NCBI GenBank assembly: GCA_036250195.1
Contig: JAVHZZ010000001.1
Location: forward strand, 397,422,117-397,486,116
DNA length: 64,000 bases
Reading direction: 5' to 3'
DNA from: Mixophyes australis
Lineage: Eukaryota; Chordata; Amphibia; Anura; Limnodynastidae
Each line of letters starts with the position of its first letter. Position 1 is the stretch's first letter. The notes under the pieces were generated by a model. It had not been told where the DNA came from, searched no databases, and saw only the letters and a program-made list of their open reading frames with translations. The translations under genes and the position numbers were made by a program. This document shows positions 16,007-60,043 of this stretch, piece by piece.

Positions 16007-17206
16007 ATGCTTGGCTCTCTGTGGTCACGACGTTGTGGCTTAGATAATCCCATTCGTCTTAGTCGTGCTGAATCTACACGGAGGGTGCTGAGTTTGGAAC
16101 TAAACAAGGATAGAGATGTTGAACGGATGCATGAAAATGGGATCAACACTCTTGACATTGAACCTGTGGAGGGAAGATATATGCTATCTGGTGGTGCAGA
16201 TGGTATTATTGTCATTTATGACCTTGAAAATTTGAGTAAAACCTCATCCTTTACATGTAAGGCGCTTTCTACGGTGGGCAAAAGTCATCCCGATGTACAC
16301 AAATTTAGTGTTGAGACAGTTCAGTGGTACCCTCATGACACTGGATTGTTTACATCAAGTTCATTTGATAAAACACTGAAAATATGGGACACAAACTCAT
16401 TGCAACTAGCGGAAATGTTTCAGTTTGATGGTAATGTTTATAGCCACCACATGTCTCCATTGGCAGCAAAGCATAGCTTAATAGCAGTTGGAACAAAAAG
16501 CCCCAAAGTACAGTTATGTGACTTGAAATCTGGCTCGTGTTCACACATATTGCAGGGCCATAGAGCTGAAGTTCTGTCTGTCTGTTGGTCTCCAAGATAT
16601 GATTACATTTTAGCTTCGGCAAGCGCTGACAGCAGAGTGAAACTCTGGGATGTCCGCAAAGCTACTGGTTGCTTGATAACTCTGGATCAGCACAATGGAG
16701 AAAAGTCAAAAGCTTCCTCAGAATCTGCTAACACTGCCCACAATGGAAGAGTTAATGGGCTATGTTTTACCAGTGATGGGCTTCATCTTTTGACAGTTGG
16801 TACAGATGATAGAATGAGGCTGTGGAACAGTGCTTCAGGGGAAAACACACTTGTCAATTATGGCAAAGTTTCAAACAGCAGCAGAAAAAGTATCAAGTTC
16901 ACTGTTTCAGTGGGATGTAGTCCGGATTTTGTGTTTGTACCATATGATAGTACCATTGTTGTGTACACCATCTATTCTGGTGAAAAGATAAGTGTGCTGA
17001 GAGGACATTACAGTGATGTGGACTGCTGTGTATTTCAGCCTCACTTTCAAGAACTCTACAGTGGCAGCAAAGACTGTAATGTATTAGCTTGGGTTCCTGC
17101 AATGCGAGAGGCTGATCCTGATGAAGGCCATGGAAAATCAAGGTCATGGGCCCATCTTCATCCTGCATTTGAAGATGCCTGGAGTAGTAGTGATGAGGAA
17201 GGATGA
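16007..17206 (+). CDS. ercc8: ERCC8 (Cockayne syndrome A, CSA) WD40 protein, intronless
   Basis: The frame encodes 399 residues, close to the 396 of the human protein. CSA is the WD40 substrate receptor of the DDB1-CUL4 ubiquitin ligase that acts in the nucleus in transcription-coupled nucleotide excision repair. Visible hallmarks are the conserved start MLGSL, the helix segment [14 protein letters not shown] ([19 protein letters not shown], about residues 19-37), WD repeats in order (about 45-76, 100-131, 140-175, 184-218, 243-277 and 327-364), the DDB1-contact type motif KLWDVR (about 213-218) and the invariant C-terminal tail ending [12 protein letters not shown]. No stop, frameshift or missing blade is apparent. 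The odd point is the complete lack of introns: vertebrate ERCC8 genes normally have about a dozen exons, so this is a retrogene or an intron-loss allele. No poly(A) tail or flanking duplication is visible, so it is not a fresh retrocopy. The ATG was chosen because it matches the family start. Confidence 0.93.
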
Positions 17207-23755: not shown

Positions 23756-24330
23756 TGTCACAGACCTCAAACAGATGTACAGCTAGGAGTCACGAATTTG
23801 GTGAAAACACTCGGTGTTTATTTGCAGAGAGGTATTAACAACAGGTAGTAAGGAGCAGTGATAAATACCAGGTTCCAGCTGATGCAGAAAGTAGCATAAA
23901 TGTCCAGAAACAACCAGGTAAACGGTAATGCAGGGTAGCAGAGGGTAGGTATTAACAACAGGTAATAAGGAGCAGTGAAAAATACCAGGTTCCAGCTGAT
24001 GCAGAAAGTAGCATGAATGTCCAGAAACAATCAGGTAAGGACAACAGGAAATTACATCAGGATTGGACAACAGGAAAGGACATCACAGGATGGGACAACA
24101 ATAACCAGCCCTGTGTGCTGGGAGTGACAGGTATATAAAGGGAAAACCACACCCAGGTGCATGGGATAATTGGTGAACAAGTTAACCCCTAAGGCAAACA
24201 AGAAAGGCATAATAGCAGCACCTCTGGTAATCAGAGGTACTGCTGCAATACAATACAACAATAGACACAAAGGGCAGGAGCTGCCATGCAAAGCAGCATG
24301 TAATGCATAAGCTGAGGGCAGATCGTGACA
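23756..24330 (-). mobile_element. Solo LTR with internal duplication, family TGTCA
   Basis: TGTCACAG starts and ATCGTGACA ends this 575-bp LTR. The exact target duplication GAGAG flanks it (23751-23755 and 24331-24335). On the minus strand it is a close relative of the LTRs at 40060-40511 and 43709-44160, including the start of the transcript region and the CAAATAAACACCGAG poly(A) signal. A segment of about 117 bp (starting at 23831 and again at 23948) is tandemly duplicated, which explains the greater length. Confidence 0.93.
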
Positions 24331-38039: not shown

Positions 38040-38503
38040 TGTAACGACCTGCCTACAATCTTCCTGCTTTGTATTGAAAGCTCCTGCCTCTTGGACTTTT
38101 GGACTTTATTTGTGTTTCATTTTATGTGTCAGCAGCAGTACCTCTGATCACCAGACATGCTGCTATTGTGCCTGTTTCTTGTGCTTTAGGAGTTAACTTT
38201 GTTGAACTAATTATTCCTTACACCTGGGTGTTCCCCTATGTATTCTTGTCACTCCCAGCATACATTGCTGGTTATTGTTGTTACATACTGTTGTTACTTT
38301 GTTGTTCCTGCCTTCTGCTATGCTTCCGGTTACTTGCTGCTTGGGATCTCTCCATACCTCCTGCTTTCCTGCATCAGCCGTGTGCCTGGTATTTTATGCA
38401 AGCTCATGAATACCTACTGTTTTGTACACCTCAGCAAATAAACATTGAGTGGTTTTCATCATATTTGTAGCTCATAGCTGTATTCCTGCATTCAACCGTG
38501 ACA
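38040..38503 (+). mobile_element. Older solo LTR of the TGTCA family
   Basis: It starts TGTAACGACCTGCC, ends CAACCGTGACA and is flanked by an exact AAGTT duplication (38035-38039 and 38504-38508). The body aligns throughout with the LTRs at 40060 and 43709, including CACCTGGGTGTTCCCC and CAGCAAATAAACATTGAGTG, but with many differences. Confidence 0.9.
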
Positions 38504-40020: not shown

Positions 40021-40059
40021 GCAATGATACAAAAATCAAATTCTTCTTAAAAAAATCCC

Positions 40060-40511
40060 TGTCATGATCTGCCTACAGCGTATGCATTACATGCTGCTTT
40101 GCATGGCAGCTCCTGCCTTTTTGTCATTCTATTATTTGTATTTCTATTTTGTGTCCCAGCAGTACCTCTTTTCCCCAGAGGTGCTGCTATTGTGCTTTAT
40201 TCTTGTGCTGAAGGAGTTAACCTGTATGTTCACTAATTATCTCATGCACCTGGGTGTGTCTCATTCCCCTTATATATACCTGTTCCTCCCAGCAGTCATT
40301 GCTGGTTATTGTTGTCCCATCCTGTGATGTCATTTCCTGTTGTCCTTACCTGATTGTTTCTGGACATTCATGCTACTTGCTGCATCAGCTGGAACCTGGT
40401 ATTTATCACTGCTCCTTATTACCTGTTGTTATCACCTCTCTACAAATAAACACAGAGTGTTTTCACCGAATTCATGACTCCTAGCTGTACTTCTGTTTGA
40501 GAACCGTGACA
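40060..40511 (+). repeat. Left LTR of the young element
   Basis: It runs from TGTCATGATC to ACCGTGACA. It holds a TATA-like CCTTATATATACC (about 40268-40280) and a poly(A) signal in ACAAATAAACACAG (about 40441-40454). Solo relatives lie at 23756-24330 and 38040-38503. Confidence 0.95.
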
Positions 40512-40612
40512 GTATAACCAGCCCAAAAAACAGCTTTGGAGTCAGGTGAAAGTTTTGTTTTATTCTGGGACTTTTTTTTGCTGCAATCAAGTTTTCATTT
40601 GTCTTTTGCAAC

Positions 40613-43375
40613 ATGTCTGTTTTACCAATCATGGAATTACCCCTGCTACAAACCTTACAAATGGACATTATATTGTTGCGCTCCCAGCTGGCCGGATTTT
40701 CCGCTTTGCTTTTGGACCCACTCAGGAGACTATCAGAGACGGTTTCACTGAAATCTAATGCTGTTGATTTGACCCAGCCAACTCTGTCTGCTGCTGAATC
40801 CGTGCCGCCAACACCTTGCAATAATACCATGTCAAATTTGCATTTAACTAACAACTGCAGTTTAACTAATGCCCGGTTCACAAGTGGGCCACGCCCCCAT
40901 CTGACCGAAGTGGAGCGACAGCGCAGAGTAACCAACAAACTGTGTCTCTACTGTGCCAGCAATGCACATTTCTTGCAGGACTGTCCTGTCCGTAGACCAC
41001 GTCAGCTTACTGAACCATCTCCTGTTGTTTCCTCTCGGCACTCCAAATCTGTTTATGCTCCAGCATTCCTGTTCTCTGCGAAGAGACCCAATCTGCCAGC
41101 TCCAGCCGCCTGTCCTGAGGCACCCATTCCCTCTGTCTCCTGTGCCGAGGTGCCAGCCTCTGTCTCCTGTGCCGAGGTGCCAGCCTCTGTCTCCTGTGCC
41201 GAGGTGCCAGCCTCTGTCTCCTGTGCCGAGGTGCCAGCCTCTGTCTCCTGTGCCGAGGTGCCAGCCTCTGTCTCCTGTGCCGAGGTGCCAGCCTCTGTCT
41301 CCTGTGCCGAGGTGCCAGCCTCTGCCTCCAGCTCTGAGGTCACATCATCTGCCTTCAGCTCTGAGGTCACATCATCTGCCTCCAGCTCTGAGGTCACATC
41401 ATCTGCCTCCAGCTCTGAGGTCACATCATCTGCCTCCAGCTCTGAGGTCACATCATCTGCCTCCAGCTCTGAGGTCACATCATCTGCCTCCAGCTCTGAG
41501 GTCACATCATCTGCCTCCAGCTCTGAGGTCACATCATCTGCCTCCAGCTTGGAGCCTGCTGCCACTGTGTCCGGTTCCGAGTCTCCTGCCACTGTGTCCG
41601 GTTCCGAGTCTCCTGCCACTGTGTCCGGTTCCGAGTCTCCTGCCACTGTGTCCGGTTCCGAGTCTCCTGCCACTGTGTCCGGTTCCGAGTCTCCTGCCAC
41701 TGTGTCCGGTTCCGAGTCTCCTGCCACTGTGTCCGGTTCCGAGTCTCCTGCCACTGTGTCCGGTTCCGAGTCTCCTGCCACTGTGTCCGGTTCCGAGTCT
41801 CCTGCCACTGTGTCCGGTTCCGAGTCTCCTGCCACTGTGTCCGGTTCCGAGTCTCCTGCCACTGTGTCCGGTTCCGAGTCTCCTGCCACTGTGTCCGGTT
41901 CCGAGTCTCCTGCCACTGTGTCCAGTTTTGAGTCTTCAGCCGCTGTCTCTGTTCCGGAGCTCCAGTCTGCTCCAGAGGGGGCGCTGCCCTTCCAGTCTGC
42001 TCCAGAGGGGGCGCTGCCCTTCCAGTCTTCTCCAGAGGGGGCGCTGCCCTTCCAGTCTTCTCCAGAGGGGGCGCTGCCCTTCCAGTCTTCTCCAGAGGGG
42101 GCGCTGCCCTTCCAGTCTGCTCCAGAGGGGGCGCTGCCCTTCCAGTCTGCTCCAGAGGGGGCGCTGCCCTTCCAGTCTGCTCCAGAGGGGGCGCTGCCCT
42201 TCCAGTCTGCTCCAGAGGGGGCGCTGCCCTTCCAGTCTGCTCCAGAGGGGGCGCTGCCCTTCCAGTCTGCTCCAGAGGGGGCGCTGCCCTTCCAGTCTGC
42301 TCCAGAGGGGGCGCTGCCCTTCCAGTCTGCTCCAGAGGGGGCGCTGCCCTTCCAGTCTGCTCCAGAGGGGGCGCTGCCCTTCCAGTCTGCTCCAGAGGGG
42401 GCGCTGCCCTTACCGACTGTTCCAGAGGGGGCGCTACTCTTACAGTCTGCTCCAGAGGGGGTTCTGCCCGTCCAGCCCGAGTTGCCAGTCCATGCGGTCC
42501 AGCCCGAGTTGCCAGTCCATGCGGTCCAGCCCGAGTTGCCAGTCCATGTGGTCCAGCCCGAGTTGCCAGTCCATGCGGTCCAGCCCGAGTTGCCAGTCCA
42601 TGCGGTTCAGCCCGAGTTGCCAGTCCATGCGGTTCAGCCCGAGTTGCCAGTCCATGCGGTTCAGCCCGAGTTACCACTTGGTGCTGTCTGCCCTCAGGCT
42701 TCTCAAAGCGCTGTCTGCCCTCAGGCTTCTCAAAGCGCTGTCTGCCCTCAGGCTTCTCAAAGCGCTGTCTGCCCTCAGGCTTCTCAAAGCGCTGTCTGCC
42801 CTCAGGCTTCTCAAAGCGCTGTCTGCCCTCAGGCTTCTCAAAGCGCTGTCTGCCCTCAGGCTTCTCAAAGCGCTGTCCCTGGCAAGCCTTCTGCCCAGTC
42901 CGGGCCTGCTCCCAAGTCTGCCGCCCAGTCCGGGCCTGCTCCCAAGTCTGCCGCCCAGTCCGGGCCTGCTCCCAAGTCTGCCGCCCAGTCCGGGCCTGCT
43001 CCCAAGTCTGCCGCCCAGTCCGGGCCTGCTCCCAAGTCTGCCTCCCAGTCCGGGCCTGCTCCCAAGTCTGCCGCCCAGTCCGGGCCTGCTCCCAAGTCTG
43101 CCGCCCAGTCCGGGCCTGCTCCCAAGTCTGCCGCCCAGTCCGGGTCTCCTGTCAAGCCTGCTGCCAAGTCCGAACCATCCGTTGCCAAGGGTGCCAAGTG
43201 TGAGCTGTCATCTACCTTTGAGGGGCACCTTTCTCAATTTAGTGCTCTACTGAGGTTTTGTGCTTCTTATTTCCCCTCAGTACCTAGCCTTGACAGTGAC
43301 CCAAAGAGGCAAACCCTTTGGTTGAGTCTGATCACCCCATTCTTTCTGACTTACAACAATTTGTCGAGGCAGTGA
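40613..43375 (+). CDS. Zinc-knuckle protein with seven tandem peptide arrays
   Basis: The ATG at 40613 opens a frame of 920 residues and is the first good start after the left LTR. Residues 1-100 begin with a leucine-rich helix-like stretch; ERQRRVTNKLCLYC and the CX2CX4HX4C knuckle (C111, C114, H119, C124) match the nucleocapsid end of gypsy-type gag. The capsid domain is missing. Seven arrays follow: SCAEVPASV x7 (176-238), SSSEVTSSA x8 (239-310), SGSESPATV x13 (320-436), QSAPEGALPF x15 plus 2 degenerate (451-620), QPELPVHAV x7 (621-683), CPQASQSAV x7 (693-755) and SGPAPKSAAQ x8 (763-842). The first three are rich in S and T, the others in P, Q and A, so most of the chain should be disordered. 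The tail (about 850-920) has no array. The function is unknown: an RNA-binding, gag-like packaging protein is my inference from the knuckle alone. Confidence 0.8.
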   Translation: MSVLPIMELPLLQTLQMDIILLRSQLAGFSALLLDPLRRLSETVSLKSNAVDLTQPTLSAAESVPPTPCNNTMSNLHLTNNCSLTNARFTSGPRPHLTEVERQRRVTNKLCLYCASNAHFLQDCPVRRPRQLTEPSPVVSSRHSKSVYAPAFLFSAKRPNLPAPAACPEAPIPSVSCAEVPASVSCAEVPASVSCAEVPASVSCAEVPASVSCAEVPASVSCAEVPASVSCAEVPASASSSEVTSSAFSSEVTSSASSSEVTSSASSSEVTSSASSSEVTSSASSSEVTSSASSSEVTSSASSSEVTSSASSLEPAATVSGSESPATVSGSESPATVSGSESPATVSGSESPATVSGSESPATVSGSESPATVSGSESPATVSGSESPATVSGSESPATVSGSESPATVSGSESPATVSGSESPATVSGSESPATVSSFESSAAVSVPELQSAPEGALPFQSAPEGALPFQSSPEGALPFQSSPEGALPFQSSPEGALPFQSAPEGALPFQSAPEGALPFQSAPEGALPFQSAPEGALPFQSAPEGALPFQSAPEGALPFQSAPEGALPFQSAPEGALPFQSAPEGALPFQSAPEGALPLPTVPEGALLLQSAPEGVLPVQPELPVHAVQPELPVHAVQPELPVHVVQPELPVHAVQPELPVHAVQPELPVHAVQPELPVHAVQPELPLGAVCPQASQSAVCPQASQSAVCPQASQSAVCPQASQSAVCPQASQSAVCPQASQSAVCPQASQSAVPGKPSAQSGPAPKSAAQSGPAPKSAAQSGPAPKSAAQSGPAPKSAAQSGPAPKSASQSGPAPKSAAQSGPAPKSAAQSGPAPKSAAQSGSPVKPAAKSEPSVAKGAKCELSSTFEGHLSQFSALLRFCASYFPSVPSLDSDPKRQTLWLSLITPFFLTYNNLSRQ
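41138..41326 (+). repeat. Array 1, 27-bp unit, 7 copies
   Basis: Unit TCCTGTGCCGAGGTGCCAGC plus CTCTGTC, encoding SCAEVPASV. Copies are identical except the last, which ends GCC instead of GTC. Confidence 0.97.
41327..41542 (+). repeat. Array 2, 27-bp unit, 8 copies
   Basis: Unit TCCAGCTCTGAGGTCACATC plus ATCTGCC, encoding SSSEVTSSA. One copy has TTC for TCC. The unit is related to that of array 1, which suggests descent from a common 27-mer. Confidence 0.97.
41570..41920 (+). repeat. Array 3, 27-bp unit, 13 copies
   Basis: Unit TCCGGTTCCGAGTCTCCTGC plus CACTGTG, encoding SGSESPATV. Copies look identical; one degenerate copy follows. Confidence 0.97.
41963..42472 (+). repeat. Array 4, 30-bp unit, 15 copies plus 2 degenerate
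   Basis: Unit CAGTCTGCTCCAGAGGGGGC plus GCTGCCCTTC, encoding QSAPEGALPF. Copies 3-5 share a TCT for GCT change, so a block of three was probably made by unit duplication. Confidence 0.97.
42473..42661 (+). repeat. Array 5, 27-bp unit, 7 copies
   Basis: Unit CAGCCCGAGTTGCCAGTCCA plus TGCGGTC, encoding QPELPVHAV. The last copies have GTT for GTC at the end and one copy has GTG for GCG. Confidence 0.97.
42689..42877 (+). repeat. Array 6, 27-bp unit, 7 copies
   Basis: Unit TGCCCTCAGGCTTCTCAAAG plus CGCTGTC, encoding CPQASQSAV. Copies are identical. Each brings one cysteine. Confidence 0.97.
42899..43168 (+). repeat. Array 7, 30-bp unit, 8 copies plus 1 degenerate
   Basis: Unit TCCGGGCCTGCTCCCAAGTC plus TGCCGCCCAG, encoding SGPAPKSAAQ. 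One copy has CC-T for CC-G at the second alanine (serine). Each unit carries one lysine. Confidence 0.97.
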
Positions 43376-43671
43376 TCAACAAGTTTTCACCAACACCTCC
43401 CGCTATGTCTTGTTACGGGGCCTCTGTATTGTCAGCAGGTCCACCCATCTCACCTGGCCTAGAGTTTTCTTTGTGCTCCACCCAATTGGTTCAAACTGCT
43501 GTTCCAGGGAATTCTCGCAAAAAGAAAAAGCGAAAGAAGAGAGCAAGGTCTACAGAGCTTGAACTGACAGCTGGCATAGTCTCCTTTGCCCATCCACCCA
43601 TGGACGAGGACTTTTCTGCCGGGCCCCCAATTTTGGACTATGATTCCGATGAATTCAGACATTTTTGGTAA
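43300..43671 (+). CDS. Second frame of the young element, basic cluster
   Basis: A frame in the -1 phase relative to the long protein is open from 43300, right behind a TGA at 43297-43299, to TAA at 43669-43671. It has no ATG near its start (the first is internal, in the codons for AMSCYG). It overlaps the last 25 codons of the long frame. At its middle lies a lysine/arginine cluster (KKKKRKKRAR, about 43520-43550) of the nuclear-signal type, and it ends in an acidic, aromatic tail (DYDSDEFRHFW). The overlap starts exactly at CCCAAAG, so expression by a -1 shift is possible; a simple one-base deletion in this copy is the other explanation. Confidence 0.5.
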   Translation, partial: PKEANPLVESDHPILSDLQQFVEAVINKFSPTPPAMSCYGASVLSAGPPISPGLEFSLCSTQLVQTAVPGNSRKKKKRKKRARSTELELTAGIVSFAHPPMDEDFSAGPPILDYDSDEFRHFW

Positions 43672-43689
43672 TTGGGCGTCTGGAATCCG

Positions 43690-43708
43690 CCCTTAAGGGA
43701 GGGGGTAC
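43690..43708 (+). promoter_or_regulatory. Polypurine tract
   Basis: AAGGGAGGGGGTAC directly in front of the right LTR has the position and composition of the plus-strand primer site. Confidence 0.8.
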
Positions 43709-44160
43709 TGTCATGATCTGCCTACAGCGTATGCATTACATGCTGCTTTGCATGGCAGCTCCTGCCTTTTTGTCATTCTATTATTTATATTTCTATTTTG
43801 TGTCCCAGCAGTACCTCTTTTCCCCAGAGGTGCTGCTATTGTGCTTTATTCTTGTGCTGAAGGAGTTAACCTGTATGTTCACTAATTATCTCATGCACCT
43901 GGGTGTGTCTCATTCCCCTTATATATACCTGTTCCTCCCAGCAGTCATTGCTGGTTATTGTTGTCCCATCCTGTGATGTCATTTCCTGTTGTCCTTACCT
44001 GATTGTTTCTGGACATTCATGCTACTTGCTGCATCAGCTGGAACCTGGTATTTATCACTGCTCCTTATTACCTGTTGTTATCACCTCTCTACAAATAAAC
44101 ACAGAGTGTTTTCACCGAATTCATGACTCCTAGCTGTACTTCTGTTTGAGAACCGTGACA
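43709..44160 (+). repeat. Right LTR of the young element
   Basis: Same length and ends as the left LTR. The one difference noted is A at 43788, where the left copy has G. Confidence 0.95.
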
Positions 44161-44382
44161 ATCCCAAAAGCATGTTGCATTGGAAGGGGAGTTACATTTG
44201 TAATCTGGAGACAGATTATTATATTTTGAGTAGGACATGTCCTTGATTAACTTTGAAAGTTGTTTTAAAAATCTATCAAGTATTTGATTTATATTTTTTT
44301 TCGCAAAATACTAGAGAACTCGCATCTCCTGATCTCTTTCCTGAGCTCCTGCAAGAGCTGTGGTTGGCACCTCTGCAAATCA

Positions 44383-52244: not shown

Positions 52245-53875
<1,631 letters not shown>

Positions 53876-56209: not shown

Positions 56210-57300
56210 GTAATTCAGTTTCCGAAGTAGGATTCCTTTTGTTAACCTAGATTGGCGCTGGCCGACCAAGGGTGCGGAGTCTAACAGATTCCCTGGTTTT
56301 CACCAAGAACCCCCACAAGGCGGGATGGACTTAGCTGCCGTGAACCCGCAGGTCGAATTGCCGTGACATGCCACGAGGTGTAACACATGATACTGAACAC
56401 AGTAGAAGAGGGAAGAAGCACTTCGCAGCAATCTAAGAAACGGAATCTAAATATGTACACGAATGGTTAATAATAAATTCTGATAGCTGGTGGAGTGTCA
56501 AAATAAGTTGGAGTCTGTTCAGGGCCCTCTTAACAACATTTGGGGCCCCCGGGCAAAGCAGTGCACCGGGGCCCCTATATATATATATATAAAAAAAATA
56601 AATTCAAAATGATTATATATATGGGCCCTGCAGCCCGTCAGAGGCAGCGAGAGAAAAAAGTTCCTAAAAAAAGAAGAAGAAAATACTTACCTTGCTCTCA
56701 GCTAGCAATCCGGCTCCCTCCCTGGTCTCCTCCTCCGTGCTGCGCTCCGCAATGGATGTCGGGCAGGCGTGATGATGTCACGCCCGACATGCACTACGAG
56801 CGCCGCACGGAGGAGGAGATCAGGGAGGGAGCCGGATCGCCAGCTGAGAGAAGGTAATTATTTTCTTTTTTTTTTTTTTTCAGGAACTTTTTTTTTTAGC
56901 TGCCTCTGACGGGCCCCCTGGGCTGCAGGGCCCCCGGGCACCTGCCCATCGTGCCCTATGGAAGAGACGGCCCTGGGTCTGGTACACAGGCAGACAATGA
57001 GGTACAAAGTCAGGAGGCAGATGGATAGTCAGAACGTAGCCAGAGTCTGGTATACAGGAGGGAAATGCAGTAGCAGAATCAGGAGGCAGATGGAGTGTCA
57101 GGATGGAGCCAGTGTCTGGTATACAAATGGTCAATCAAGAGGAAAGCAACTCAGGGAGCGAAAGCACAGCAACCGAAACAGGACCAGGAGTCAAACAAGC
57201 TGAGATACTTTTTGCTCTGACACTGCTATAGTCTCAGAGTGAGGTATATATACTCTGCAGAAAGACTATGCCGCCTCCCAGCCATGATCACGTGTCCACC
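56210..57300 (-). repeat. Degenerate gypsy-type LTR, split by a MITE
   Basis: The plus-strand block GTGCGGAGTCTAACAGATTCC to CCCACAAGGCGGGATGGAC (about 56270-56330) parallels the GGCGTGGAGTCC...CCCACAAGGAGG block of the LTR at 60044-60652. On the minus strand a TATATATACCTC box (about 57244-57255) follows the chromodomain frame. The stretch 56520-56975 is a later insertion. It is the best candidate for the 3' LTR of the chromodomain element, much diverged. Confidence 0.4.
56520..56975. mobile_element. Palindromic hAT-like MITE
   Basis: The ends CAGGGCCCTCTT and (inverted) CAGGGCCGTCTCTT are hAT-like, and the flanking octamers AGTCTGTT and GGTCTGGT agree at 6 of 8 positions. Nearly the whole interior folds on itself: CCGGCTCCCTCCCTGG to GATGTCGGGC pairs with GCCCGACATGC to GGGAGGGAGCCGG around a centre near 56775, and GCTGCCTCTGACGGGCC pairs with its inverse near 56640. 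No coding capacity. Confidence 0.85.
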
Positions 57301-59870
57301 TGAACCAGGAATTGCTGAGTTGTGAACATCTGTGGCTTTGATCCAGGAATGTTCCTCAGGACCGTATCCTTTCCAGTCTACTAAAAACTGTAGGGAACCA
57401 ATCAAAATATGAGAATCCAAAATTTGTCTCACCTCGTACTGCTGATCCTGAACTCACACTGGAGATGGTGGTTTAGCTGTAGTGGTGTAGTGATTCGTAA
57501 TTACTGGTTTTAAGAGAGAAACATGAAAAACATTTGATATTTGTAAAGATGATGGTAATTCTAATCTGACATGAACCGGATTAATGATCTCAGTAATCTT
57601 GTAGGGACCAATAAACTGAGGTGCCAATTTCATGCTGGGTACTCTTAGTCGAAGGTCACGGGTTGATAACCAGTCTTGATCTCCAGGCTTCCATTATCTG
57701 AGAATTTCTTATAGTGGTCAGATGTTTTGTTGAGGTCCTCTCTTACCTGAGCCCAAATTGAGGAGAAGTCCCTGAGGAGGGAATTCACAGTTGGTAATTC
57801 AGAGGTAGGTAGCTGCGGCAAAGTAGGAAGTCCAGGATGGCATCCATAAGGAACAAAGAAGGGGGAATTGGAAATGGCTTTGTGAAAGAGATTATTGTGG
57901 GTGAACTCCGCTCAGGGGAAAAATTCAACCCAATTGTTTTGGTTAGCAGATACATACATATGAAGAAACTTCTCAAGTTCGTGGTTGGTCCTCTCTGTCA
58001 ACCCATAGGCGGATGAAAAATTTAGTTGAATATCAATGATCCTACAAAAAGATCTCCAAAATTTAGACACGAATTGAGAACCACGGTAGGACACAATCTC
58101 TTGAGGACATCCGTGTAGGCAGAAAATCTCCTGAATAAAATGTTTGGCTAAAGTAGGAGCCAAGGGAAGACCTTTCAGAAGGATGAAATGAGCTGTACGA
58201 GAAAAAAAATAAATGGTCAACAACAACCCAAATAACTGTACAGCCCCTTGAGGGAGGTAAATCAGTAATAAAATCCATCGACAGATGAGACCACGGGCGA
58301 TCTGGAGTGAGCAGAGGGACAAGAGGACCATAAGGTTTTTGTCGAGGCACTTTATGTTGACCACAGGTAGAGAATGTGGATACAAGTTTCTTAACATCAT
58401 CACAAAGAGAAGGCCACCAGTAGTTTCGAGAAAGTAGTTCCCATGTTTTTTTAATACCGGCATGACCGGAGAACCGAGAGGTGTGGGCCCAACGTAAAAG
58501 TTTGATACGTAATATGGTAAGGATAAAGGCTGTGTTGGGTGGACAATTGATAATTGTAGATGTAGTGGTGGCTACTATGCATTTGGGATCCAAGATTAAT
58601 ATACTCTCTTCAGGATATTATGTACCCGAAGGATCTGTAGAGCGCATCCGCCTTCTTATTTTTGGACCTTGGACGATAGGTAAGGATGATGTCAAAACGT
58701 GAAAAAAATAGTGACCATCTAGCTTGACACTGAGCAGTCTGTAAGTAGAACAGGTTTTTATGGTCTGTGTAAATTATCACAGGGAACTGTGCACCCTCCA
58801 ACAGATGTCTCCATTCGGTAAGGGCCAAGAGCTCCTTATCACCTATGCCATAGTTCCTCCCCGCAGGTAGAAGTTTGAGGGAGAAGAAGCCACAGGGGTG
58901 AAGCTTCCCTAAAGAGTCTCGTTGGAAGAGAACTGCACCTACCCAGTAGGAAGAGGCATCAACTTTTAAAAAGAAGGGGCGTTGGCGACCAGGTTGCTGC
59001 AGGATCGGTGCTGAGAAAAAAAGCTTCCTTAAGAAGCTTAAATGCTTGTTTAGCTTCAGGAGTCCAATTCTTAGCACAGGCCACTTTCCTCGTAAGAGAG
59101 GTAATGGGAGAAACCAGAGAAGAATATCCCTTGATAAACTGGCAATAGTAATTAGCAAATCCCAGGATACGCTGTGTGGCTTTCAAACCAAGAGGTTGAG
59201 TTTAGCAGGGTCCATTTGTAGGCCAGTGCCAGAGACAATATAACCTAGGAAGGGTAATTGATCCTGCTCGAACATACATTTCTCAAGTTTACAAAACAGA
59301 TGATTAGTCCTGAGGCGGGTAAGGACCTTAATAACATGTTTCCGGTGAGATTGGAGATTCTATGAAAAGATGAAAATATCAACTAGGCAAACCACTACAA
59401 AGCGGCACATGAGATCCCAGAATATCTTGTTGCATAGAGAAATTAGTTCGTCTAGAGAGGAAGGTAATTCATGTGAAACTAACTCGTCCTTGATTCTGTC
59501 AGATAGCCCTTCCCAAAAAGTGGCTATAAAGGCTTCTTCATTCCAGCGGAGCTCAGAGGCCATTGTACGAAATTGGACAGTCTACTGCCCTAATGGCAAG
59601 TGGCCTTGACACATCCGTAGAATTCCTGCAGCAGCACTGGAGACACTGCCAAGTTCATTGAATATTTTCTTGAAAGTAGCCAGGAAATTAGTACAATTAT
59701 GAAGCAGGGGGACATTCCTTTCCCAAAGGGGGAGGCCCAGGCGAGAGCCTGCCTGGAGAGGAGAGAAATAATGTATGCAACTTTATTTTTCAGAAGGGAA
59801 ATTGCCTGGGAGCAACTCGAATTGAATTGCACAAAGGAAAATCAGCAACACAGAAGTGTGTGGAACAGGT
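57226..59870 (-). pseudogene. Decayed chromodomain Ty3/gypsy element (gag-pol)
   Basis: Right to left on the minus strand: gag capsid part (59.85-59.42 kb) with FWEGLSDRIKDEL; reverse transcriptase joined directly to it (from 59.42 kb) with a changed active site (CLVDIF in place of a YLDD-type block) and LFCKLEKCMFE; the connection and RNase H (59.19-58.6 kb) with [13 protein letters not shown] and YTDHKNL; the integrase zinc-binding (58.55 kb) and core domains (58.4-57.9 kb) with MDFITDLPPS; and a chromodomain (57.43-57.23 kb) with [14 protein letters not shown]. The type is that of the vertebrate Sushi-like chromoviruses. Frameshifts divide it into at least six pieces, and the protease and first half of reverse transcriptase are deleted. 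Confidence 0.9.
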
Positions 59871-60043
59871 AAGTTGTGACACTGAGTGGGACGGTAGGGG
59901 GTAGCACGGAATTCGTTTCCATACTATCTGTGACTTGACTGCCTTCTGCAATAAACTGAAAGGGTCCCAAAATTTAGAAGTTAGAGATTATTATCATTGT
60001 TCTACTCCTCATTGCTGAGTTGTCTGAGTCTTTATAATGGGGG
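59871..60043 (-). other. Leader of the gypsy element
   Basis: Lies between the LTR and gag. No clear tRNA primer site follows the LTR (minus strand CCCCCATTATAAAG). Confidence 0.4.

Follow-up and report, generated by a model that had tools for sequence, protein, structure and literature searches.

Enzyme-free long terminal repeat (LTR) elements, including ones that bear a Gag protein, are already known. LARD and TRIM elements have a non-coding interior, and the TR-GAG elements of plants carry a plain gag frame without pol. SVA, a non-autonomous element of apes that lacks LTRs and is moved by L1, contains a variable-number tandem repeat that differs in length between copies; this repeat is not known to code. 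Here we describe an array-bearing LTR family of the frog Mixophyes australis, of which one complete copy lies at positions 40060-44160 of a 64,000-nucleotide stretch of contig JAVHZZ010000001.1, hereafter the window. Three described systems serve for comparison, each from an excerpt of the source: RLG_Quinta of einkorn wheat, which is reported to supply Gag and use the enzymes of RLG_Cereba (PMC11302176), RLG_Sabrina of wheat, which includes 'semi-autonomous' elements (PMC9744471), and Tf1 and Tj1, for which self-priming has been demonstrated and proposed, respectively (PMC4600332).

In our reading, the window element is a semi-autonomous Ty3/Gypsy element of a vertebrate, belongs to the Tf1/sushi type and encodes a domain-shuffled Gag whose coding array is hypervariable; we give this reading, which rests on sequence comparison, a probability of roughly 0.6. 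According to the excerpt, RLG_Quinta is likewise of the Ty3/Gypsy group and lacks reverse transcriptase and integrase while keeping its Gag frame, has diagnostic end motifs in common with a complete partner and recombines between subfamilies; however, it is described as having a clear Gag to which a domain of unknown function is added, and it has the same primer site as its partner (PMC11302176). In the frog family a Gag-type frame also appears to be maintained without these enzymes, but the capsid piece lies behind the zinc knuckle, a coding array of seven blocks is present, and the self-primer is private, its site differing from that of the candidate helpers. The RLG_Sabrina_SA elements, as excerpted, are similar in being semi-autonomous and Gag-bearing, with short variants that carry unique proteins, within a cooperative complex; they differ as plant elements whose Gag has a protease immediately downstream and no repeat array (PMC9744471). 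Tf1, Tj1 and the vertebrate sushi elements belong to the Ty3 group and prime, or in the case of Tj1 are proposed to prime, with the 5′ end of their own RNA (PMC4600332, in excerpt), as the array family is predicted to do, but they are complete elements with pol. The array family departs from TR-GAG in that the standard Gag Pfam domain PF03732 was not found in the pieces scanned and the domain order is changed. Since selection is seen on the N-terminal segment and the tail of its protein, it also falls outside LARD and TRIM, which have no maintained coding frame. Among the titles and abstracts listed by our search of open-licence PubMed Central, none concerned a vertebrate Gag-only partner, a Gag with the capsid behind the knuckle or an LTR element with a multi-block coding minisatellite, although a Repbase-type entry is possible; the excerpts of the frog papers PMC4131045 and PMC12822217 contain no such element. 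What appears to be new is the combination of a domain-shuffled Gag, a seven-block hypervariable coding array and a private self-primer.

The first-pass annotation, made from the sequence, had proposed a complete LTR element here, with LTRs of equal length that differ once, ATCCC on both flanks and a polypurine tract, and our analysis agrees on each of these points. The features of the window copy are:

40055..40059, + strand: target-site duplication ATCCC, left copy
40060..40511, + strand: 5′ LTR, 452 bp, TGTCA...CCGTGACA
40271..40276, + strand: TATA box
40301..40309, + strand: GCTGGTTAT, putative start of R and 5′ end of the RNA, able to pair with the primer site
40445..40450, + strand: AATAAA polyadenylation signal (by reading)
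40514..40522, + strand: primer-binding site ATAACCAGC, self-priming, two nucleotides (GT) past the left LTR
40613..43375, + strand: main frame of this copy, 920 amino acids (aa), a truncated form of the family protein
40613..40915, + strand: conserved N-terminal segment ELPLLQTLQMDIILLRSQLA...DPLRRLS, coil-like by eye, no Pfam match
40943..40984, + strand: CCHC zinc knuckle CLYCASNAHFLQDC
41130..41329, + strand: array block A, 27-nt unit (SVSCAEVPA)
41321..41549, + strand: array block B, 27-nt unit (SASSSEVTS)
41552..41946, + strand: array block C, 27-nt unit (PATVSGSES)
41961..42475, + strand: array block D, 30-nt unit (QSAPEGALPF)
42470..42676, + strand: array block E, 27-nt unit (VQPELPVHA)
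42683..42877, + strand: array block F, 27-nt unit (AVCPQASQS)
42893..43172, + strand: array block G, 30-nt unit (QSGPAPKSAA)
43217..43386, + strand: N-terminal piece of the capsid, here shortened and lying in two frames, without a Pfam match in the window copy
43405..43671, + strand: 88-aa frame with basic patch KKKKRKKR and acidic end ...DYDSDEFRHFW
43695..43708, + strand: polypurine tract AAGGGAGGGGGTAC, directly before the 3′ LTR
43709..44160, + strand: 3′ LTR, 452 bp
44161..44165, + strand: target-site duplication ATCCC, right copy

The only difference between the two LTRs is at LTR position 79 (G/A). The annotation had found no enzyme domains, and the Pfam scan of the window copy likewise gave nothing above the curated cut-off and one sub-threshold DUF3060 match within the array. 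It had also described a zinc-knuckle protein made largely of peptide repeats, as seen in the CCHC motif at 40943-40984 and the seven tandem blocks at 41130-43172. Two of its details changed. The 920-residue frame is indeed present in this copy, but it encodes a truncated form, as intact frames elsewhere encode 983-1299 aa. The window tail measures 452 nt against 501 nt in 10 of the 12 other close copies, and due to this loss within the capsid piece the frame shifts and stops at 920 aa, leaving the last 88 aa in another frame. Moreover, the frame is not the sole long one, since a second forward frame of 763 aa and parts of the reverse strand are also open in the array; openness of the array alone is therefore weak evidence of coding. 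This second frame (40962-43253, + strand, +1 relative to the main frame) overlaps the array and is open fully or partly in other copies.

A second genomic copy, which the annotation had named as a test of its proposal, was sought in the host genome (3.13 Gb, 680 contigs; C and L numbers below are our labels for contigs and loci). The exact string of LTR end, GT and primer site occurred 713 times, compared to none for the reversed control, and 17 further full-length copies were found. The leader motif GGAGTCAG lay within 4-30 nt of the junction at 548 of the 713 left junctions, right junctions number 667, and the family is estimated at several hundred copies. In the search with the left LTR, the best 40 of 3443 first-look candidates were scored, and all matched at 99-100%. 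Among these, 26 form 13 pairs spaced 3.3-4.5 kb apart, with the window pair among them, four are left LTRs with the same leader, four are right LTRs preceded by the same 100 nucleotides of interior, and the final six are, by reading, solo LTRs with a 5-bp duplication. The 13 close full-length copies, window included, are termed subfamily 1 (sf1); they were picked by LTR similarity to the window copy and are thus biased towards young ones. Subfamily 2 (sf2, five full-length copies) was discovered through the first of two solo LTRs in the window:

23756..24330, - strand: solo LTR of sf2, 575 bp, duplication CTCTC (by reading)
38040..38503, + strand: older solo LTR related to the family, duplication AAGTT (by reading)

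Eleven of the best 40 matches to the sf2 LTR were near enough to pair and gave the five copies; the other 29 are known only as matches. Locus L032, fetched as a sixth sf2 pair, turned out to be DNA between two neighbouring copies and was left out of all counts. The LTR at 38 kb gave matches of 79-92%, and no helper element was seen among its matches. Seven equal-scoring copies of an LTR 79% like it sit on small contigs (three on C17 and one each on C39, C70, C139 and C160), perhaps as a satellite or a duplicated region.

All 18 full-length copies have LTRs with TG...CA ends, a 5-bp duplication and a polypurine tract. They lie at separate sites with 18 different 5-bp flanks, and the duplication is perfect in 17 and matches at four of five bases in L012. 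The two LTRs of a copy differ at 0-2 sites in sf1 (8 in total over 13 x 452 sites) and at 1-5 sites in sf2. Both the mobilisation and, within the young-biased sf1 set, the recent activity claimed in the annotation are supported by these data. By sequence comparison, the family lineage is older than the window insertion.

The interiors of the other 17 copies measure 2.8-4.0 kb and, judged by frames, consist of leader, main frame and 3′ end; none of the 18 interiors read has room for pol. Behind the best 40 LTR matches no pol was found either, in the interiors and interior ends read (8 of them over 100-400 nt). An autonomous member with the same LTR could nevertheless lie below these best 40 matches, in which case the array copies would be its internal-deletion derivatives. 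The search leaves space for such a member, as the 40 LTR candidates scored are the top of 3443, 29 of the best 40 sf2 matches were left as matches, the leader motif in its exact form is absent from 165 of the 713 left junctions, and 66 of the 100 left junctions listed on C1 have no partner among the listed right ones. However, in the parts read, each of the 40 best LTR matches proved to be an array element, one end of such an element or a solo LTR, and the same architecture is found in two copies with diverged tails. The 34 listed C1 junctions that do have a listed right partner no more than 12 kb away point the same way: 28 span 1.5-4.2 kb, and the four sampled of the six longer ones start with an array-type N-terminal segment, 65-98% identical. 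We consider a hidden autonomous member very improbable. Among ten left junctions with other leader letters, six were read; L078 and L079 are array elements, and L080 has array sequence directly behind the primer site.

Some junctions were arranged differently. At L077, L081 and L082 the primer site is followed by a family LTR in reverse orientation, that is, by head-to-head LTR rearrangements. Same-strand left junctions or LTRs 2.7-4.3 kb apart (C1:28579729/28583481, 29966627/29970442 and 271457238/271459983; C5:118051619-118060080) look like LTR-sharing tandem elements or close neighbours.

In all 18 copies the parts of the protein follow one order: the N-terminal segment and the knuckle, blocks A-G, then the N-terminal piece of a capsid, a basic patch and an acidic end. 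Eleven of the 18 (8/13 sf1, 3/5 sf2) have a frame that stays open from its first ATG through FRHFW at the end. An 88-residue piece matches PF16297 (DUF4939) in all four capsid pieces scanned (best E 2.2e-11), and PF19259 Ty3_capsid was also matched in three of the four, with weaker scores. DUF4939, which we take to be the N-terminal part of sushi/PEG10-type Gag capsids, is annotated for most of the Gags compared that are of the same kind as P0001, a sushi-type Gag. In an hhalign comparison with 15 such Gags (from fish where the source was named), the capsid piece aligned over 77 columns (probability 89, E 2.5e-6). Over 50 residues the knuckle region has 52% identity to P0001, and a protein search with residues 1-190 matched this one protein. 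The annotation had called the element a gag derivative of a distinct kind. The knuckle and the capsid match agree with the first part of this claim, and the placement of the capsid piece agrees with the second: in P0001 the capsid precedes the knuckle, whereas in the array family it follows both knuckle and array. Of the order expected for Ty3/Gypsy elements of the Tf1/sushi type, capsid and then CCHC knuckle, both parts are thus present but reversed. The C-terminal half of the capsid was not found in the pieces scanned, and PF03732 Retrotrans_gag had no match in the window frame and its pieces, the four capsid pieces, one whole tail and one N-terminal segment. A search of solved structures with the capsid piece returned weak matches, mostly to armadillo-repeat proteins (best E 0.026). 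An origin of the array from a host gene or known protein was rejected, as a search with residues 640-920, in which the 7995 top word-sharing candidates were scored, yielded 21 weak matches with E values of up to 10 (the best being 5.1e-3).

Array lengths, which the annotation had suggested comparing, differ between all 13 sf1 copies. Units range from 7 to 20 in block A, 2-15 in B, 5-14 in C, 6-23 in D, 2-11 in E, 1-12 in F and 3-15 in G, counts that vary by a few units with the mismatch limit used, and none of the 78 pairs has identical block counts. In the closest pair, 5 of 1974 non-array sites are different (0.25%), yet the counts disagree in four of the seven blocks, by 12 units; for the median pair the figures are 1.4% of sites and 26 units. 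With the looser limit every copy has at least one unit per block, and 5 of the 18 copies have an order string other than A-G (an extra A or B among A-C in four, a stray C after G in the window copy), which we took as mislabels of similar units. With the stricter limit all 13 sf1 copies are in order, one of them without a B unit. Segments have also been exchanged between subfamilies. In the pairs compared, sf1 and sf2 are 86-88% identical in LTRs, 97-98% in N-terminal segments and 67-79% in tails, and L018 is a mosaic with an sf1 LTR, an sf1-like front of the tail and a last 190 nt that is 95.3% like sf2. The change in array length and the exchange between subfamilies fit template switching between co-packaged RNAs. 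Minisatellite mutation after insertion may equally have produced the array differences, and some repeat assembly error is possible.

The primer site at 40514-40522 is the reverse complement of 40301-40309 in the LTR, and this complementarity is found in both LTRs of all 18 copies. The distance from the TATA box to the self-primer site is 30 bp in 13/13 sf1 copies and 28 bp in 5/5 sf2 copies. Among 5000 LTRs resampled at first order, 22 contained the 9-mer by chance, position ignored; with the sf2 LTR the number was 37 of 5000. From this pairing, the site is predicted to be a self-priming one of the Tf1/sushi type.

Furthermore, the same genome contains sushi-type gag-pol frames. From 52863 first-look candidates, 84 P0001 matches were scored, of which 14 have a 1509-aa open frame; both loci scanned (L037 and L053) encode reverse transcriptase, RNase H and integrase zinc-binding parts. 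On C1, 13 P0001-like matches lay within the listed right-junction range (three more lay outside it), and in five of these the exact 19-mer of polypurine tract and LTR start occurs 2.5-2.6 kb downstream on the same strand. These five sharers are known by their gag match and ends; four have open frames of 1492-1509 aa and one of 672 aa. Left ends were read for three of them, with LTRs of about 670-780 bp that end in CGTGACA, followed by GT, in all three. Their primer site is TTGTTCTGGC, compared to ATAACCAGC in the array family, and each is complementary to its own LTR. The 20 best P0001-like loci (L035-L054) gave no LTR match to the array family; self-complementary stretches of 10-13 nt occur in 13 of them and are absent in seven. 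Only those of L040 and L053 were kept, where the stretch follows CA and GT as at an LTR end, again with letters that differ from those of the array family; the other 11 lie inside gag or elsewhere, look unrelated and were rejected.

Short motifs at the LTR ends, with the GT spacer and the polypurine tract, recur between the array family and these candidates, and we infer that helper enzymes would act in trans: reverse transcriptase and integrase would be supplied by complete sushi-type elements of the same genome. The integrase would recognise the LTR ends, where the two groups match over few bases. As each RNA would prime itself, a primer site in common with the helper would be needless. The sushi-type sharers are plausible helpers, not proven ones.

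Substitution rates were calculated by the Nei-Gojobori method with our own script, from few copies and non-independent pairs. The counts for the N-terminal segment exclude L029, which has no segment, and L015 (489 nt); those for the tail exclude the window copy, L012, L016 and L029, whose tails are not a multiple of three. In the coding frame, the ratio of nonsynonymous to synonymous differences (pN/pS) of the N-terminal segment was 0.18 within sf1 (66 pairs) and 0.44 between sf1 and sf2 (48 pairs), and within sf1 it was 0.98 and 1.26 in the +1 and +2 frames. In the tails, synonymous changes were in strong excess when read in the coding frame, and in weak or no excess in the two alternative frames. 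Tails of L009 and L013 compared to those of L030 and L033 gave a ratio of nonsynonymous to synonymous rates (omega, dN/dS) of 0.26-0.30, a figure resting on 4 of the 14 usable tails, 7 of which enter any pair; the other six pairs gave 0.27-0.72, the highest being L030 with the near-identical L034, a broken copy. For the N-terminal segment, omega was 0.37-0.58 among L009, L030 and L033, 0.39-0.44 against the older L078 and L079 (0.40-0.42 for L009) and 0.55 between these two. In all coding-frame comparisons dN/dS was below 1 (0.18-0.72), and in most between-subfamily ones about 0.26-0.44. Dual coding by the 763-aa frame was not supported overall, with a pN/pS within sf1 of 0.98 in the N-terminal segment and 1.21 in the tail.

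Two distant copies were read in pieces (L078 with L083, L079 with L084), and each has a leader, N-terminal segment, array and tail. Their N-terminal segments are 64% (L078) and 71% (L079) identical to that of L009. In both copies TRF called six blocks; L083 has the A-type block without a called B-type, and L084 the reverse. The L084 tail has 43-45% identity to the tails of L009, L030 and L033 and keeps DUF4939 (E 2.5e-8), the basic patch and DYDSDxFxHFW; against four other tails, pS was 0.74-0.84 and pN 0.34-0.36.

Several observations speak against a semi-autonomous element with a selected protein. Seven of the 18 copies are frame-broken, with indels or stops in the tail or the array and, in L029, also near the start, and both distant copies are broken in the array. 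The N-terminal half, knuckle included, had no Pfam match in the pieces scanned. Within sf2 the N-terminal segment gave a pN/pS of 0.67 in the coding frame and a lower 0.24 in the +1 frame (6 pairs each), and between subfamilies the +1 frame reached 0.55 compared to the 0.44 of the coding frame. Of 76 distinct changes in array units, 28 were synonymous (22 expected), 46 replacements and 2 stops; the +1 frame gave 29, 46 and 1, respectively, and thus no clear purifying selection on residues. On the helper side, 8 of the 13 C1 matches lack the 19-mer, which is short and G-rich, the LTRs of two candidate helpers do not align with the array-family LTR beyond 18-20 nt, and no helper with the LTR body or primer site of the array family was found behind the best 40 LTR matches.

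Part of this would be expected of a pure RNA parasite, in which the frame is a fading gag relic and stop-free 27- and 30-nt units stay open on any copying. The arrays open in a second forward frame, the lack of clear selection on their residues, the broken copies and the sf2 N-terminal segment without excess constraint in the coding frame all agree with it. It does not account for the strong coding-frame synonymous excess in the tails and in the sf1 N-terminal segment, nor for a tail that at about 45% identity keeps the capsid motif, the basic patch and the DYDSDxFxHFW end. We disfavour this explanation and hold it to be improbable. On balance, the protein looks maintained in its N-terminal segment and tail, while the array residues look weakly constrained, with block order and a unit length in threes being kept.

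How the protein of a semi-autonomous element might act can be proposed only tentatively. The array protein would be translated from the RNA of the element itself. It is possible, with some doubt, that it is an adaptor-type Gag, in which the knuckle and basic patch would hold the element's RNA, the capsid piece would dock into the particle of the helper and the array would serve as a long flexible tether. Changes in array length and exchange between subfamilies could then arise when reverse transcriptase switches template between two packaged RNAs. A broader proposal, more doubtful than the adaptor itself, is that the capsid protein has been replaced by such a domain-shuffled adaptor and that the array is re-lengthened in almost every copying round, which would make it a self-diversifying, selected, helper-dependent protein with a new length at each insertion. 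The main rival for the role of the protein is an interference factor. The restriction-type Gag fragment p22 of Ty1 is a model for this: a Gag fragment without the C-terminal half of the capsid would enter helper particles and divert or poison them in favour of its own RNA. The finding of only the N-terminal capsid piece and no PF03732 in the pieces scanned fits an inhibitor, and purifying selection is compatible with any protein function, but the knuckle, the conserved N-terminal segment and the basic patch are all kept, with no obvious need for them in an inhibitor. We regard interference as rather unlikely.

Other features were seen in the window. At 16007-17206 (+ strand) an intact intronless 399-aa frame matches ERCC8 (CSA) end to end (best E 5e-215, PDB chains) and is either a full-length retrocopy or an intronless gene. 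A 197-aa stop-to-stop frame at 52878-53471 (- strand) resembles, by eye, the end of a LINE reverse transcriptase. Positions 57300-59900 (- strand) contain a degraded sushi-type element with a capsid fragment, RNase H, integrase zinc-binding and core pieces in broken frames and, by eye, a chromodomain. This chromovirus at 57-60 kb was rejected, as it has no LTR match to the array family.

If the semi-autonomous reading is true, an enzyme-free element can persist for long under selection for its own shell-type protein. The hundreds of copies in one genome would then offer a means to gauge the speed at which reverse transcription changes tandem repeats. Self-priming would matter as well, since self-primed parasites would not need to match the primer site of their helper.
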